Shown: piece by piece, positions 2,621 through 57,793 of the stretch
Position numbering within the stretch: position 1 is the stretch's first letter
How the letters are laid out: each line of letters starts with the position of its first letter
Made by a program: the position numbers and the translations under genes
Assembly (NCBI RefSeq): GCF_022984075.1
Contig: NZ_JALAAD010000001.1
Span: 1,902,455-1,966,454, forward strand
Source: Synechococcus sp. C9
GTDB taxonomy: Bacteria; Cyanobacteriota; Cyanobacteriia; Gloeomargaritales; Gloeomargaritaceae
Length of the DNA: 64,000 bases
Direction: 5' to 3'
The notes under the pieces: model-generated
What the model was told of the DNA's origin: nothing
Databases searched by the model: none
Seen by the model: only the letters and a program-made list of their open reading frames with translations

Positions 2621-3151
2621 CTAAATTCCCAGGCGCACAAACCGGTCATTTTGCCAACGCAAACGGTAGAGCTTTTGGTTGCGGCGATTTACCACAATAA
2701 TGTCCCGTCCCACTCTGGGTAATTGGTAGGTTAGGGTGGGATCAAAAGGTACGGGTAACAATTCCCGGGTCACATTTCGCCATTGTCCCTGACGATAGTC
2801 CAACAAAATTAACTGGGATAAACCGGGTTGTTCTGGGAAAGAAACCGGGTCATAGGGCACGCTATACGCCGCTAAATATTGCCCATTATTTTTGCGGAAA
2901 ATAGCAAACTCAAACTGTTGGGGATTATCGCTGGCTTGATAGCGAATATAACCATTCGGAACATCCACGGTGGCATAATGCAAATAACGCTGACGGTTTT
3001 CAGTAGAACCCAAGGGCAAGAGGGGGGCGGGAATTCCCAGGAAATGTTCTTGGACAGAGCGAAACGGACGGGTCAGCCCAGGACTGCCTTGCAGGAATAA
3101 CACGATAGTCATGGTTACTATGCCGGTCAAAATAGAATGGGAAGTCTTCAT
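2621..3151 (-). CDS. Exported hypothetical protein
   Basis: A 176-residue protein I do not recognise. The N-terminus (MKTSHSILTG followed by a hydrophobic stretch to about residue 27) looks like a signal peptide or anchor. The rest is soluble and contains many Tyr/Arg/Gln residues, ending in strands such as IIVVNRRNQKLYRLRW. I chose the ATG at 3151; a TTG four codons upstream extends the frame slightly. It is a lone gene on the minus strand, divergent from the riboswitch-cbi operon, with mobile repeats on both sides. It may be a periplasmic or surface protein of lineage-restricted distribution. Confidence 0.6.
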   Translation of the reverse strand: MKTSHSILTGIVTMTIVLFLQGSPGLTRPFRSVQEHFLGIPAPLLPLGSTENRQRYLHYATVDVPNGYIRYQASDNPQQFEFAIFRKNNGQYLAAYSVPYDPVSFPEQPGLSQLILLDYRQGQWRNVTRELLPVPFDPTLTYQLPRVGRDIIVVNRRNQKLYRLRWQNDRFVRLGI

Positions 3152-3265
3152 AAGCTCTAGCAAACCAACACCCTATAAACGTTAGATATTTTATCTTAAT
3201 CTTAACTGAATATGGTCTGAATCATGGGGTTCCAAGGTTTATAATAATCTTAATCCAGTTGATAA

Positions 3266-3375
3266 TCGGGGTCACCCCCGTCCTTGGTTTTGGATAGCCT
3301 GCGTAGCGTAGCCATGAGTATGGGTATTCCGGCGAAATAATCTTCTAGTAATGCAAATACATAGAGGTGCCCTTA
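3266..3375 (+). repeat. Family A MITE-like repeat, left end lost
   Basis: The core GGGGTCACCCCCGTCCTTGG and the right part (GGCGAAATAATCTTC through ATAGAGGTGCCCTTAA) match the family A copies at 35436-35554 and 59859-59976. The left terminal inverted repeat is not recognisable. A nested 22-bp element (3294-3315, beginning ATAGCCTGCGTAGCG) is inserted in the centre. The copy ends about 60 bp upstream of the cobalamin riboswitch. Confidence 0.7.
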
Positions 3376-3435
3376 ATTATTATTTACATGAGAATTGATC
3401 TGGGGAAAGAATAGTATTGTAAGCTATAAATCTAG

Positions 3436-3565
3436 CCGTCGGTTTCGTTGGGGAACAGCCAACGGATGTGAAGGGGAAAGCACGGTGTGAATCCGTCACT
3501 GTCCCGCAACTGTGATGAGGTTTGGTGCCTCTAAGTCAGGATGCCCGCCGCCGGTTGACAACATA
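3436..3565 (+). promoter_or_regulatory. Cobalamin riboswitch upstream of cbiM
   Basis: The conserved core is present in order: GCCAACGGATG, GGGAAAGCACGGTGTGAATC, CACTGTCCCGCAACTGTGAT and the closing AGTCAGGATGCCCGC. These are the B12-box and peripheral elements of the adenosylcobalamin riboswitch class. It ends about 25 bp before the cbiM ATG, so control of translation initiation by sequestering the start region is the simplest mechanism; I do not see a clear terminator hairpin. When corrinoid is plentiful, cobalt uptake would be shut down. Confidence 0.93.
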
Positions 3566-3589
3566 GACCAATCTGCGAGGTACGGATTG

Positions 3590-4348
3590 ATGTTCCAGAT
3601 ATTGCGGCGTTCCCGGCTGGCTCTGTTGGCTGGGTTGGGTGTGTATTGGGTGGTTGGGGCGGCACAACCGGCACAGGCGATGCACATTATGGAGGGGTAT
3701 TTGCCCCCTGCCTGGGCGATTTTTTGGTGGGTGGTTTTTTTGCCGTTTTTGGTCTGGGGATTTTTTGCCTTGAGGCGCATCACCCGTGAATTTCCCGAGG
3801 CCAAGTTGTTGTTGGCTTTGGCTGGGGCGTTTACGTTTGTGTTGTCGGCGTTGAAATTGCCTTCGGTGACGGGGAGTTGTTCCCATCCGACGGGGACGGG
3901 GCTGGGGGCGATCCTGTTTGGCCCTGGGGTGATGTCGGTGCTGGGGGGGCTGGTGTTGCTGTTCCAGGCGTTGCTGTTGGCGCACGGGGGGCTGACCACC
4001 TTGGGGGCGAATGGGGTTTCGATGGCGGTGGTGGGGCCGTTGGTGGCCTATGGGGTGTATCAGGGGGTGATGCGGATGACCCGGCGGCAAACGGTGGCGG
4101 TTTTTTTGGCGGCGGCGCTGGCGGATTTGATGACCTATGTGGTCACGTCTTGGCAGTTGGCACTGGCATTCCCGGCGGTAACAGGGGGAGTTGGTGCCGC
4201 TTTTGCCAAATTTGCCACGATTTTTGCCATCACCCAGGTGCCTTTGGCGGTGAGTGAGGGTCTGCTGACGGTGCTGGTGTGGAATTGGCTCCAGACCTAT
4301 AGCCGACCGGAGTTGGAGTCGTTGGCGTTACTCAAAGAAGGAGCGTGA
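3590..4348 (+). CDS. cbiM: Cobalt ECF transporter, substrate-capture subunit CbiM
   Basis: A 252-residue integral membrane protein with the CbiM signature [17 protein letters not shown] placed after an N-terminal hydrophobic leader ending in AQA. In this family the processed N-terminus including His coordinates Co(II). Several Gly-rich membrane helices follow, with the motif [19 protein letters not shown] conserved in CbiM/NikM. The frame is open upstream to 3512, but that stretch is the riboswitch, so I set the start at ATG 3590. It is the first gene of cbiMNQO. The riboswitch argues for cobalt rather than nickel. Confidence 0.95.
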
Positions 4349-44454: not shown

Positions 44455-45939
44455 ATGAAAGCGGGCGACAAATTGGCGGGACGCTATTTGGTGGTCAAAA
44501 CCCTGGGAGCCGGTGGTTTTGGTACGACCTATTTGGCACAGGACACCCAACGACCCGGACAGCCCCTCTGTGTGGTGAAGCACCTGAAACCGGATAGCCA
44601 GGATGAATTTGTCCTCACCACCGCCCGTCGTCTGTTCACCAGTGAAGCAGAAATTTTAGAAAAACTGGGGAAACACGACCAGATTCCCGCTTTGCTGGCT
44701 TATTTTGAGGAAAATGGGCAGTTTTACCTCGCCCAGGAATTTATCGAAGGCCATCCCCTCAGCCAAGAAATCAAGCGGGGTGTCCCCTGGCCCCAGGACA
44801 AGGTGGTGCGGATGCTGGCGGATGTGCTGGGCACCTTGGATTTTGTCCACCAAAACGGCGTGATTCACCGGGATATTAAGCCAGATAATCTGATTCGGCG
44901 CAAAAGTGATGGCAAATTGGTCTTGATTGATTTCGGGGCGGTCAAAGAAATCCAAGACCCCAAGGCCGCCGCCCAGCAACGTACCGGGGCAACGGTAGCG
45001 ATTGGCACGGTGGGCTATGCCCCGGCGGAACAGGCGCAGGGAAAACCCCAGTTTGCCAGCGATATTTACAGCCTGGGAATTGTCGCCATTTGTGCCCTGA
45101 CGGGTAAAGAACCCGACCAACTGGAAAGCGACCCCCAAACCGGGGAACTGGTCTGGCGGCAGGGAATCACCGTCAGTCACGCCCTGGGCACCGTGTTAGA
45201 CCGGATGGTACGGTATCAGTACAGTCGCCGCTATGCCAATGCGGGGGAAGCCCTAGCCGCCCTGCGGAGTTTTAACTTAATTGGTACGACTGCGGTGGGC
45301 ACCCCGAGTACGACCTCCTCCAGCAAAGTGGCGGCAACCCCCAAAACCCAAATCCGCCGTGCCCCAACGACTACCCTGGTTTCCAGTAGCGGCGTGGATG
45401 GGGTGGTGTGGAAGTACGGCATTATCACCGTGATTGCCTTGGTCATCATGGGGATTTTATCCATTCCCCTGCAATCAATCCTGAATCAACGGGTGAGCCA
45501 AGTCCGATCGACACCCACAACATCGGCATCGGAGACGCAGCCGTCTGTCAAAGAATACGATGTGCCAGATGAACTGTTTACGGCAGGGTCTTGGCGTACG
45601 GAAAATATCATCCGAGGGGAACAACGGCACATCTACCGGATTTTAAGCAACATCACCGAGATTAAGCTCTCCTGGCGGGTGGAAACTCCCAATGTAGTTG
45701 CCGCATTATTCGACCCCTATGACAACCTACTCGAATCGGCGGCGCAACGGGGTTCTAAGACCCTGCGGCGGGAGGACACGCCCTATCTTTTGGTGATTGG
45801 TGGACAGCCGGGGCGGTATGGTTTGTCATTACGGGTCAGCCGGGTGGAACCCTCCCCTACTCCCACGCCAGAAAAAGAAGAAGAAGAACCTCTCCGTGTC
45901 CCTGACAATACGATTGAACCCCGGTTACCCGGACGTTGA
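44455..45939 (+). CDS. Membrane-anchored Ser/Thr protein kinase
   Basis: A 494-residue eukaryotic-like kinase. Gly loop GAGGFG (18-23 region), ATP-binding Lys42 in VVKHLKP, catalytic HRD (138-140) in VIHRDIKPDN, DFG (159-161), and the P+1 region GTVGYAPAEQAQGKPQFASDIYSLG are all present, so it should be active. After a Thr/Ser-rich linker (residues 280-315) there is one membrane helix (about 322-342) and a C-terminal extracytoplasmic domain of about 110 residues (VPDELFTAGSWRTENIIRGE...) ending in a Pro/Glu-rich tail. The external domain may sense a ligand. Divergent from aroE by 39 bp. Confidence 0.93.
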   Translation: MKAGDKLAGRYLVVKTLGAGGFGTTYLAQDTQRPGQPLCVVKHLKPDSQDEFVLTTARRLFTSEAEILEKLGKHDQIPALLAYFEENGQFYLAQEFIEGHPLSQEIKRGVPWPQDKVVRMLADVLGTLDFVHQNGVIHRDIKPDNLIRRKSDGKLVLIDFGAVKEIQDPKAAAQQRTGATVAIGTVGYAPAEQAQGKPQFASDIYSLGIVAICALTGKEPDQLESDPQTGELVWRQGITVSHALGTVLDRMVRYQYSRRYANAGEALAALRSFNLIGTTAVGTPSTTSSSKVAATPKTQIRRAPTTTLVSSSGVDGVVWKYGIITVIALVIMGILSIPLQSILNQRVSQVRSTPTTSASETQPSVKEYDVPDELFTAGSWRTENIIRGEQRHIYRILSNITEIKLSWRVETPNVVAALFDPYDNLLESAAQRGSKTLRREDTPYLLVIGGQPGRYGLSLRVSRVEPSPTPTPEKEEEEPLRVPDNTIEPRLPGR

Positions 45940-45988: not shown

Positions 45989-46231
45989 ATGAGTCAGGAA
46001 TCAACCTTTACCGTTGGGCAAAAAGTACGGGTAAAAACCAATGTTATCGTGTACCACCATCCCCAGCACAAGGGCAAACCCTACGACCTCACAGGTCATG
46101 TGGGCGAAGTGGTGGAAGTGATTGAGACTTGGCAGGGTCGCCCCCTGACGGCTAACCTACCTGTAGTGGTGAAATTTGACGCTAAATTTAAGGCGCATTT
46201 AGAAGCAGAGGAGTTAGAACCTGTAGATTAA
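45989..46231 (+). CDS. ftrV: Ferredoxin:thioredoxin reductase, variable subunit
   Basis: An 80-residue protein matching the FTR variable (alpha) chain, an SH3-like beta-barrel. Conserved stretches are VGQKVRVKTNVIVYHHP, LTGHVGEVVEVIETWQGRPL and NLPVVVKF. With the catalytic subunit FtrC (not in this window) it passes electrons from photosynthetic ferredoxin to thioredoxin. ATG 45989 begins MSQESTF; the longer frame upstream runs into the kinase gene. GGAG lies about 15 bp upstream. The stop overlaps the convergent CoBaHMA-like gene by four bases. Confidence 0.92.
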   Translation: MSQESTFTVGQKVRVKTNVIVYHHPQHKGKPYDLTGHVGEVVEVIETWQGRPLTANLPVVVKFDAKFKAHLEAEELEPVD

Positions 46232-47142
46232 CCGTTGGCGGGCGGTTCAGGTTTTTTGCGAGTGCGGGGTTTGCGGGGACTGGTACGGCGGGATGGTTTC
46301 GTTGGCGGTGGGGTATTTACCCGTTCTGGGGTGATTTCAGTAGTCGCTGTGGACGAAACTTCATCAGCAATTACTGCCGGTTCTGGGTCGGGGATCAGGG
46401 ATTCTGAGGTAATTTCAGTGGTTGATGTAGAAGAAATATCATTAGTAACTTCTGTTAATTTCGCATCGGTTAATTCCGTAGCAATTACTGCCGGTTCTGG
46501 GTCGGGGATCAGAGATTTTGAGTTAATTTCAGTGGTTGTTGTAGAGGAAATATCATTCGTTAATTCTGTTAATTTCGCATCGGTTAATTCCGTAGTAATT
46601 ACTGCTGGTTCTGGGTCAGGGATCAGAGATTGTGCAGTAAGTTCGGTGGTTGCTGTAGAAGAAACATCATTCGTTACTTCTGCTAATTTCGCATCGGTTG
46701 ATTCCGTAACAATTACTGCCGGTTCTGGGTCAGGGATCAGGGATTCCGGTTGGGTAATGGCTGGGTCGTCAGTCACTGGATTCGCCATTTCTGCAAGGGC
46801 AACCGTTCGTTCTTGATAGGTGCCATTTGTCTCAGAAACAGCCATTTCCTCTCGGTCTTGATGATTAACGTTAGGCGCAAAAAACTCCTGGGTAATTTGG
46901 GTAATCAGTTGATAAATTTGTGTCTGAGTCATCCCTTCTGCCTGGGGACGATAATTAATAATAATCGAATCGGTAGCATGACTGATACGCACGGTTTCCA
47001 CCGCCGGTGTCGCCTTCATCTGGGCTTCTAACGTGGCTTTCAAATCAGGACTGGTCTGCAAACTGGGTACTCGTACCCGCAAACGACCGGGGATACCATG
47101 AATAATCTTTGGCTGGAATAACGGACGAGCCATCAGGGACAT
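46228..47142 (-). CDS. CoBaHMA-like domain protein with 38-residue tandem repeats
   Basis: A 304-residue protein. Residues about 8-90 form an HMA-like ferredoxin fold without the metal-binding CxxC; the basic first strand in HGIPGRLRVRVPSLQ and the later ISHATDSIIINYRP resemble the cyanobacterial CoBaHMA family. Residues 134-247 are three units of 38 residues that each begin SLIPDPEPAVI, followed by a shortened fourth unit. The tail (about 275-304) is rich in Pro, Arg and Lys. No membrane span is visible. Function unknown; CoBaHMA domains occur in calcyanins and other proteins but the glycine zippers of calcyanin are missing. A second ATG lies at 47133. Confidence 0.72.
   Translation of the reverse strand: MSLMARPLFQPKIIHGIPGRLRVRVPSLQTSPDLKATLEAQMKATPAVETVRISHATDSIIINYRPQAEGMTQTQIYQLITQITQEFFAPNVNHQDREEMAVSETNGTYQERTVALAEMANPVTDDPAITQPESLIPDPEPAVIVTESTDAKLAEVTNDVSSTATTELTAQSLIPDPEPAVITTELTDAKLTELTNDISSTTTTEINSKSLIPDPEPAVIATELTDAKLTEVTNDISSTSTTEITSESLIPDPEPAVIADEVSSTATTEITPERVNTPPPTKPSRRTSPRKPRTRKKPEPPANG
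46340..46743 (-). repeat. 114-bp tandem repeat inside a coding region
   Basis: Three units of exactly 114 bp (46743-46630, 46629-46516, 46515-46402) and a fourth that is shortened by about 17 codons (from 46401). All keep the reading frame of the CoBaHMA-like protein. Confidence 0.9.
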
Positions 47143-56488: not shown

Positions 56489-57793
56489 ATGCCCATTATG
56501 ATTGTGGAAAATTTCTTCATCCGGGCTTTTGATAAGGCACGACGAGGGGATTATCAAGGAGCAATTCTGGATTACACCCAGGCATTACAGGTGAATCCGG
56601 GGGATGCGAAGGCGTTTAATAATCGGGGGTTTGCCCATTTCATGATCGGGGATTACAGCCGGGCGGTCAGTGACTATACCAGTGCGTTACAGCTGGACCC
56701 CCGGTTTGGGGAGGCGTATTACAATCGGGGGATTGCCCGGTTCATGCTGGGGGATTACGAAGGGGCGGTGGCGGATTATACCCAGGCGATTCACCTGCGT
56801 CCCCGGGACCCCAAGGCGCATGGCAATCGGGGTTTTGCCCATTTGATGCTGAAGAATTATGCTCAGGCGATTGAGGATTACACGGCGGCGCTGGCATTGC
56901 ACCCGGAGGATGCCAAGGCGTATTACAACCGGGGGGTGGCGTATCTGGGGTTGGAGCAGTACCGGGCGGGGTTGGCGGATTTAGACCGGGCGTTGCAGAT
57001 CAATCCTGAGTTTGCGGAAGCCTACAACAAGCGGGGCAGTGCCTATTTTGAACTGGGACAGGTGCAGGAAGCCCTGCAAGACTACCAGGAAGCCCTGCGT
57101 TTGAATCCGACCCTGGCGGAGGCGTATTACAATCGGGGGGTCGCCTACGGGGAACTGGGGCAGGTACAGCGGGAGATTGAGGACTATTCCGAGGCGATCC
57201 GGTTTAACCCGGAGTTTGGGGAGGCGTATTACAATCGGGGGATTGCCCGGTTTATGGCGGGGGACAAGCTGGGGGCGGTGGCGGACTATACCAAGGCGAT
57301 CCAACTCAACCCGGAGGATGCCCGGGGGTATAGCAACCGGGGGTTTGCGTACCACAGTTTGAACCAGATTGCGGAGGCGGTGGCGGACTATACGGTGGCG
57401 TTGCAACTGGACCCGAATTTGGCGGAGGTGTACAGCAAGCGGGGGAATGCCCGGTTTGATTTGGGGGATGTGGCGGGGGCGATTGAGGATTACACGGAGG
57501 CGATTCGGATCAACCCGGATTATGCGGTGGCTTATTATAATCGGGCGACGGCTCGGTTTGATTTGGGGGATGTGTTGGGGGAAATTGAGGATTACAATCG
57601 CACGTTGCGCTTAGACCCAAATTTTGCGGATGCCTATTTGAACCGGGGGTTGGCTCGTCTGCGCTTGGGTAATAAACGGGAGGCGTTGGTGGATTTTCGC
57701 AAAGCGGCTTCCCTGTTTGAGCATCGGGGAGACCAGGTGATGCACCAGCAAATTCTTGAACTGATGCAGACGGTGACCAAAAGCAGTCTTTAA
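56489..57793 (+). CDS. TPR-repeat protein (about 12 repeats)
   Basis: A 434-residue protein consisting of about twelve near-consecutive tetratricopeptide repeats of 34 residues with the pattern A(Y/K)-YNRG-A-LGDY-GA-ADYT-AI-LNP. It has very regular units and a short terminal helix (LFEHRGDQVMHQQILELMQT). No signal or membrane span. Such superhelices bind partner proteins. Start chosen at ATG 56489; ATG 56498 and upstream ATG 56441 are possible, and no clear ribosome site decides. The preceding 244 bp, divergent from the pentapeptide gene, show no other gene. Confidence 0.88.
   Translation: MPIMIVENFFIRAFDKARRGDYQGAILDYTQALQVNPGDAKAFNNRGFAHFMIGDYSRAVSDYTSALQLDPRFGEAYYNRGIARFMLGDYEGAVADYTQAIHLRPRDPKAHGNRGFAHLMLKNYAQAIEDYTAALALHPEDAKAYYNRGVAYLGLEQYRAGLADLDRALQINPEFAEAYNKRGSAYFELGQVQEALQDYQEALRLNPTLAEAYYNRGVAYGELGQVQREIEDYSEAIRFNPEFGEAYYNRGIARFMAGDKLGAVADYTKAIQLNPEDARGYSNRGFAYHSLNQIAEAVADYTVALQLDPNLAEVYSKRGNARFDLGDVAGAIEDYTEAIRINPDYAVAYYNRATARFDLGDVLGEIEDYNRTLRLDPNFADAYLNRGLARLRLGNKREALVDFRKAASLFEHRGDQVMHQQILELMQTVTKSSL

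Follow-up and report, generated by a model that had tools for sequence, protein, structure and literature searches.

A stand-alone CoBaHMA-type protein with an acidic linker and a basic tail that co-occurs with calcyanin in Gloeomargarita

What would a cyanobacterium do with a calcyanin-like domain that is not part of calcyanin? CoBaHMA is the N-terminal domain in part of the calcyanins, and is defined by basic residues that are conserved on its first strand and an extra N-terminal strand ahead of the HMA core. The stretch of 64,000 nucleotides analyzed here (the window) contains an ORF for a 304-aa protein in which such a domain was predicted beside acidic repeats and a basic tail. Calcyanins are linked to the amorphous carbonate inclusions of cyanobacterial cells. 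In published accounts, calcyanin function is described as unclear, G. lithophora is described as making intracellular carbonate, and the nature of a layer of ~2.5 nm around the inclusions is described as unknown (PMC6087745).

A CoBaHMA-type domain in an apparently new architecture

The ORF is read from an ATG at position 47142 of the window (Table 1). The original prediction described its product as an HMA-like domain joined to an acidic repeat array and a Lys/Arg/Pro tail, and all of these parts were confirmed. The N-terminal domain scored well above the cut-off of the HMA_2 family in Pfam, and the same scan reported no match of the protein to classical HMA (PF00403) at E ≤ 10. A model of residues 1 to 95, built from one sequence (pTM 0.71), had a beta-beta-alpha-beta-beta-alpha fold. 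Its closest structural matches were copper HMA domains, the top 13 rows (chains) all being HMA with Z of 8.9 to 8.0; for ATP7B domain 6a71_B, Z was 8.9 and the rmsd 1.6 over 65 residues. Foldseek alone with this model gave no match with E < 0.001, its first row being an RNA polymerase subunit and the next ones HMA domains, and a PDB sequence search returned nothing significant. A strand at residues 12–17 precedes that at residues 20–24 in the single-sequence model; for most HMA chains the alignment begins at residue 17–19. Neither outcome that would have spoken against the prediction, a classical HMA score or an unrelated fold, was seen.

Table 1. Features of the 304-aa gene and its conserved flank (positions in the window)
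Feature	Coordinates	Strand	Evidence
Ser/Thr protein kinase gene	44455..45939	+	Conserved flank at 4/4 orthologue loci
FtrV (ferredoxin-thioredoxin reductase variable chain), convergent, 4-base overlap with the 304-aa gene	45989..46231	+	PF02941, E 8.1e-30; conserved flank
Whole ORF, 304 aa: CoBaHMA-type domain, predicted disordered acidic linker, basic tail	46228..47142	-	ORF list, Pfam, charge count, model
HMA_2 (PF19991) match, residues 13-83	46894..47106	-	E 3.5e-10, 40.5 bits, cut-off 30
CoBaHMA-type domain, structured part, ~residues 12-88	46879-47109	-	Model pLDDT 79.8; HMA fold, Z 8.9
Acidic Ser/Thr-rich linker, residues 93-275, net -30	46318..46866	-	pLDDT <50 over residues 92-278
38-residue repeat 1 (SLIPDPEPAVI...)	46630..46743	-	Tandem Repeats Finder + protein
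38-residue repeat 2	46516..46629	-	Tandem Repeats Finder + protein
38-residue repeat 3	46402..46515	-	Tandem Repeats Finder + protein
Partial repeat 4	46324..46401	-	Protein
Basic Lys/Arg/Pro tail, residues 276-304 (29 residues), net +8	46231..46317	-	Charge count
RKPRTRKKPEPP, invariant across 4/4 orthologues	46240..46275	-	Orthologue comparison

The predicted basic first strand was also borne out. H15, R20 and R22, which lie in HGIPGRLRVRVP (residues 15–26), were present in 97 of 97 related domains, with a basic residue at position 24 in 86% and at position 52 in 93%; these counts lean towards the domain of the 304-aa protein because the gathering profile was seeded on it. The 97 domains are what remained of 167 matched domains after removal of duplicates and of those shorter than 50 residues, and none contained CxxC. 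R20, R22 and R24 were invariant in the four orthologues described below, and an alternating strand would put them on one face.

Comparison with calcyanin upheld the proposed likeness to CoBaHMA. The domain aligned with calcyanin N-terminal domains in hhalign (98.3%, E 1.3e-14) when 3 Gloeomargarita domain rows, two of the genomes (G000 and G002) being identical there, were compared with 6 of 14 calcyanin domains. BLASTP with L033 gave an E of 5e-8, and both the calcyanin N-terminal domain and the domain of the 304-aa protein scored with PF19991. A whole-protein search of relatives also matched the N-terminus of a G021 protein with glycine-zipper repeats, which we take to be a calcyanin from its architecture. 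From the HMA_2 match, the HMA-like fold and the alignment to calcyanin domains we conclude that a CoBaHMA-type identity of the domain is supported at the level of sequence and model.

The HMA fold, the basic first strand, the lack of CxxC and direct homology are common to this domain and CoBaHMA. Elsewhere, CoBaHMA adjoins glycine zippers or a membrane ATPase, whereas here it stands alone with an acidic, predicted disordered linker and an invariant basic tail. Fused calcyanins have CoBaHMA in common with the 304-aa protein; however, glycine-zipper repeats were present in all four calcyanins scanned, whereas Pfam reported none in the 304-aa protein, which is encoded at a locus separate from ccyA. 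Classical HMA domains (CopZ, Atx1 and the ATP7B domains) share the fold but differ in their metal-binding Cys pair, as the entire 304-aa protein contains no Cys. Much of PF19991 consists of P-type ATPases and of small proteins encoded next to these. Closer in layout are L077 (G264) and L079 (G169), in which CoBaHMA is likewise followed by an Asp/Glu/Ser/Pro linker, but the C-terminal region of L077 differs from the invariant tail motif, and L079 is known from its extended match and domain alone. The 304-aa protein is apparently a new architecture inside a known domain family. Two further CoBaHMA proteins, L121 and L122 (G281 and G096), carry GEVIGE-type glycine-rich repeats and end in short basic C-termini (SSRKKK and SSRKPTRRKK) that resemble its tail.

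Conserved ends and a variable linker

Orthologues with the tail were found in 4 of 291 class genomes, all of them Gloeomargarita (G000, which is the window genome, G002, G004 and G005). A named match, from Gloeomargaritales cyanobacterium VI4D9, was 79% identical in its best segment. Over the 92 codons of the domain, the window genome and its sister G002 differed at 7 synonymous and 0 non-synonymous positions (dS 0.12). For G004 and G005, dN was 0.20 and 0.19 and dS was 1.18 and 1.73, with 46 of 66 and 44 of 63 domain residues identical, respectively. Judged by these codon comparisons, the ORF is a gene under purifying selection.

The kinase and FtrV genes provide a conserved frame for the locus. 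In G006 and on contig C42 of G001, FtrV is followed by the next conserved gene with the 304-aa gene cleanly missing in between; this next gene, presumably acyltransferase-like, also lies after the orthologue in G004 and G005. A different stretch follows FtrV in G003 and on contig C18 of G001, where the 304-aa gene is absent as well. As G001 contains two different kinase–FtrV loci (L066 and L069; contigs C18 and C42), its assembly may mix two strains.

Tandem Repeats Finder identified an array at 46366–46746 (114-bp unit, 3.3 copies, 89% matches) with a score of 595, by far the top tandem-repeat score in the window. It encodes three full 38-residue units (residues 134–247), which are identical pairwise at 28, 30 and 33 of 38 positions, and a partial fourth. 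Two other tandem repeats in the window, at 56610–56806 and 57452–57647, have a 102-bp unit in ~1.9 copies each, a length that, at a guess, would fit 34-residue TPR units; a cobalamin riboswitch (62.2 bits) lies at 3423–3566 on the plus strand. Asp and Glu make up 20% and Lys and Arg 4% of the 183-residue linker. In a full-length model made from an alignment of two sequences the domain was confident, and the linker is predicted to be disordered.

The repeats were present in only two of the four orthologues (G000 and G002), and they were rejected as a conserved functional feature. Across the orthologues, linker length varied between 64 and 183 residues and net charge between -7 and -30, and the linker sequence differed too. 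In contrast to this unconserved linker, RKPRTRKKPEPP was identical in all four. A search of 7 genus genomes with a 28-residue tail query matched these same orthologues; two weak additional matches in G005, one to a 61-aa frame (E 0.149) and one to a 46-aa frame (E 1.4), were taken as chance. A search of a plasmid collection gave no match. As the domain and the tail are kept while the length, sequence and charge of the linker are free to change, selection appears to keep the two ends of the protein rather than the repeats.

Distribution relative to calcyanin and CoBaHMA ATPases

The original prediction had proposed checking the genome for ccyA, and a calcyanin-type gene was found in the window genome at C1:2176261-2177244. 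Among the eight genomes G000 to G007, the 304-aa gene and calcyanin occurred in the same four (G000, G002, G004 and G005), and in no other genome of Gloeomargarita. A search with the G021 calcyanin among 20 relatives revealed no glycine-zipper calcyanin in G001, G003, G006 or G007. The calcyanins of Gloeomargarita have a helical-looking N-terminus in place of CoBaHMA. The 304-aa gene does not adjoin ccyA in this genus, and the link between the two is genomic. In all four ccyA-bearing Gloeomargarita (L061, L062, L063 and L064), the immediate neighbor of ccyA is a conserved gene of 874 aa that runs in the same direction and, judged by its start, presumably encodes topoisomerase I.

The count of PF19991 genes was three per genome in the four that have the 304-aa gene and zero in the three congeners that lack it; two further CoBaHMA ATPase genes (L003 in G000 and L028 in G005) fell below the PF19991 limit of that count. 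The two other PF19991 genes of each genome encode a CoBaHMA P-type ATPase and a relative of 413–437 aa. In the window genome, the CoBaHMA P-type ATPase gene (L147, G000:C1:2398500-2405500, ~2654–3631) is split by a DDE-transposase insertion, which leaves an N-terminal frame of 140 aa and a C-terminal one of 634 aa, and G002 has an intact 776-aa copy. The CoBaHMA ATPases at L148 1699–4026 and L146 5971–9015 contain TLDFGTGIR or TLDLGTGIR before DKTGT and no CxC; heavy-metal pumps carry CPC.

Strong calcyanin matches, defined by a best E < 1e-40 (weaker ones in G096, G210, G213 and G281 were set aside), were found in 19 of the 291 class genomes. CoBaHMA was carried by 13 of these 19 calcyanins, although the search favored such proteins because its query alignment held two CoBaHMA-bearing rows; the six without it are those of the four Gloeomargarita, G270 and G271. 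HMA_2 occurred in 19/19 strong-calcyanin genomes vs 69/291 overall, an overlap that is partly circular since 13 of the calcyanins carry the domain themselves.

G271 contains a stand-alone CoBaHMA gene (141 aa) ~180 bp from its CoBaHMA-less ccyA, in a cluster (L146 1415–9015) that comprises a CoBaHMA ATPase-like gene, ccyA, the stand-alone CoBaHMA gene and a CoBaHMA ATPase gene. This is an independent physical linkage of CoBaHMA in trans with a CoBaHMA-less calcyanin, observed on a single contig of 11.8 kb in a 750-contig assembly, so that mis-binning is possible. Among 38 genomes of the family of G271, its calcyanin was found in G271 only, and the linkage is therefore not replicable there. In G270, a CoBaHMA-like reading begins ahead of the CoBaHMA-less ccyA, in the same orientation; it was not counted as an intact gene, as the similarity stops after ~20 residues. 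In G014 and G119, whose calcyanin is of the fused type, additional mid-size CoBaHMA proteins of 342–354 aa occur, and provision in trans only where the domain is missing is thus a tendency rather than a strict rule. A tree of the 97 domains (62 columns, with many forks unresolved) placed the domain of the 304-aa protein in its own clade (97/88), which a weak fork (82/87) joins to ATPase-type domains. It does not group this domain with those of calcyanins, and an origin by split from calcyanin is unsupported.

Proposed role and alternatives

A tether is suggested by the layout of the protein, in which both ends are constrained and positively charged and the acidic spacer between them is variable, and the co-occurrence with ccyA points to the carbonate-inclusion system as its most likely context. 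Our tentative preference is that the 304-aa protein is a two-ended tether whose CoBaHMA domain is supplied in trans to the carbonate machinery of Gloeomargarita. The protein would be soluble, with a CoBaHMA-type end presenting a basic ridge (R20, R22 and R24 together with H15 and R52), whose likely counterpart is an anionic surface or ligand, or a CoBaHMA or calcyanin partner. The long, unstructured acidic linker would be a spacer of free length, expanded by repeats in the G000/G002 lineage; it would set the reach of the protein, and may prevent a fold-back of the tail or loosely bind ions. The invariant basic tail would dock on a second anionic partner. As the calcyanin of Gloeomargarita lacks CoBaHMA, the 304-aa protein may provide this domain in trans for the formation of intracellular amorphous carbonate. 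Fold and family, the conservation pattern, predicted disorder and co-occurrence with ccyA are observations; the partners, the tethering and a part in forming carbonate are inferred from them.

Some of the same genomic evidence would suit an accessory of the CoBaHMA P-type ATPases that docks on their CoBaHMA, or on their ligand or lipid, and adjusts cation transport with or without carbonate formation. The three PF19991 genes per genome, two of them the ATPase and the 413–437 aa relative, and their absence from three congeners are consistent with this role, as are small CoBaHMA proteins beside CoBaHMA ATPases in ccyA-less cyanobacteria (e.g. G054, G010 and G028). We regard it as rather unlikely, as the Gloeomargarita gene is not adjacent to an ATPase gene and stays strongly constrained in the window genome while the ATPase there is split by the transposase. 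Alternatively, the protein could be a lineage-specific CoBaHMA protein whose link to ccyA reflects nothing but the shared ancestry of one clade. The ccyA-less congeners G001, G003 and G006 do form one clade (support 97/98 in a tree of UvrB only), so one evolutionary event may account for the pattern in the genus, and several gene losses could accompany the smaller genomes (2.2–2.5 Mb) of that clade. This explanation is improbable, however, in view of the independent case of G271, where a CoBaHMA-less ccyA and a stand-alone CoBaHMA gene are physically linked.

The two remaining explanations each rest the function on one part of the protein, and we consider both very improbable. The original prediction suggested that the acidic repeats could bind cations; on this view the array would bind Ca2+ or nascent amorphous carbonate directly and the domain merely anchor it. 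Acidic disordered proteins are described as working in carbonate biomineralization elsewhere, and the predicted disorder and net charge of the linker would be suited to this. However, Asp and Glu account for just a fifth of its residues, half of the orthologues have no repeats, and the G005 linker has 64 residues with a net charge of only -7; the constrained parts are the domain and the tail, and the repeats did not hold up as the essence of the protein. The strongly basic, invariant tail motif could instead bind nucleic acid or the ribosome, making the protein a regulator unrelated to carbonate, but Pfam reported no nucleic-acid binding domain and nothing else points in this direction.

A more general model, which we put forward with greater doubt than the tether itself, is that calcyanin is modular and that, where CoBaHMA was lost or never present, it is contributed in trans by a CoBaHMA protein encoded separately, the partner in Gloeomargarita being a bivalent tether with the invariant basic tail. 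The ccyA, CoBaHMA P-type ATPase and 304-aa genes would then be co-inherited, separating the carbonate-forming members from the presumed non-forming ones. As a constrained stand-alone CoBaHMA protein that tracks ccyA, the 304-aa protein is a second candidate component of the carbonate-inclusion system, and its gene, ccyA and the CoBaHMA ATPase gene make up a small set that is testable in a cultured species.
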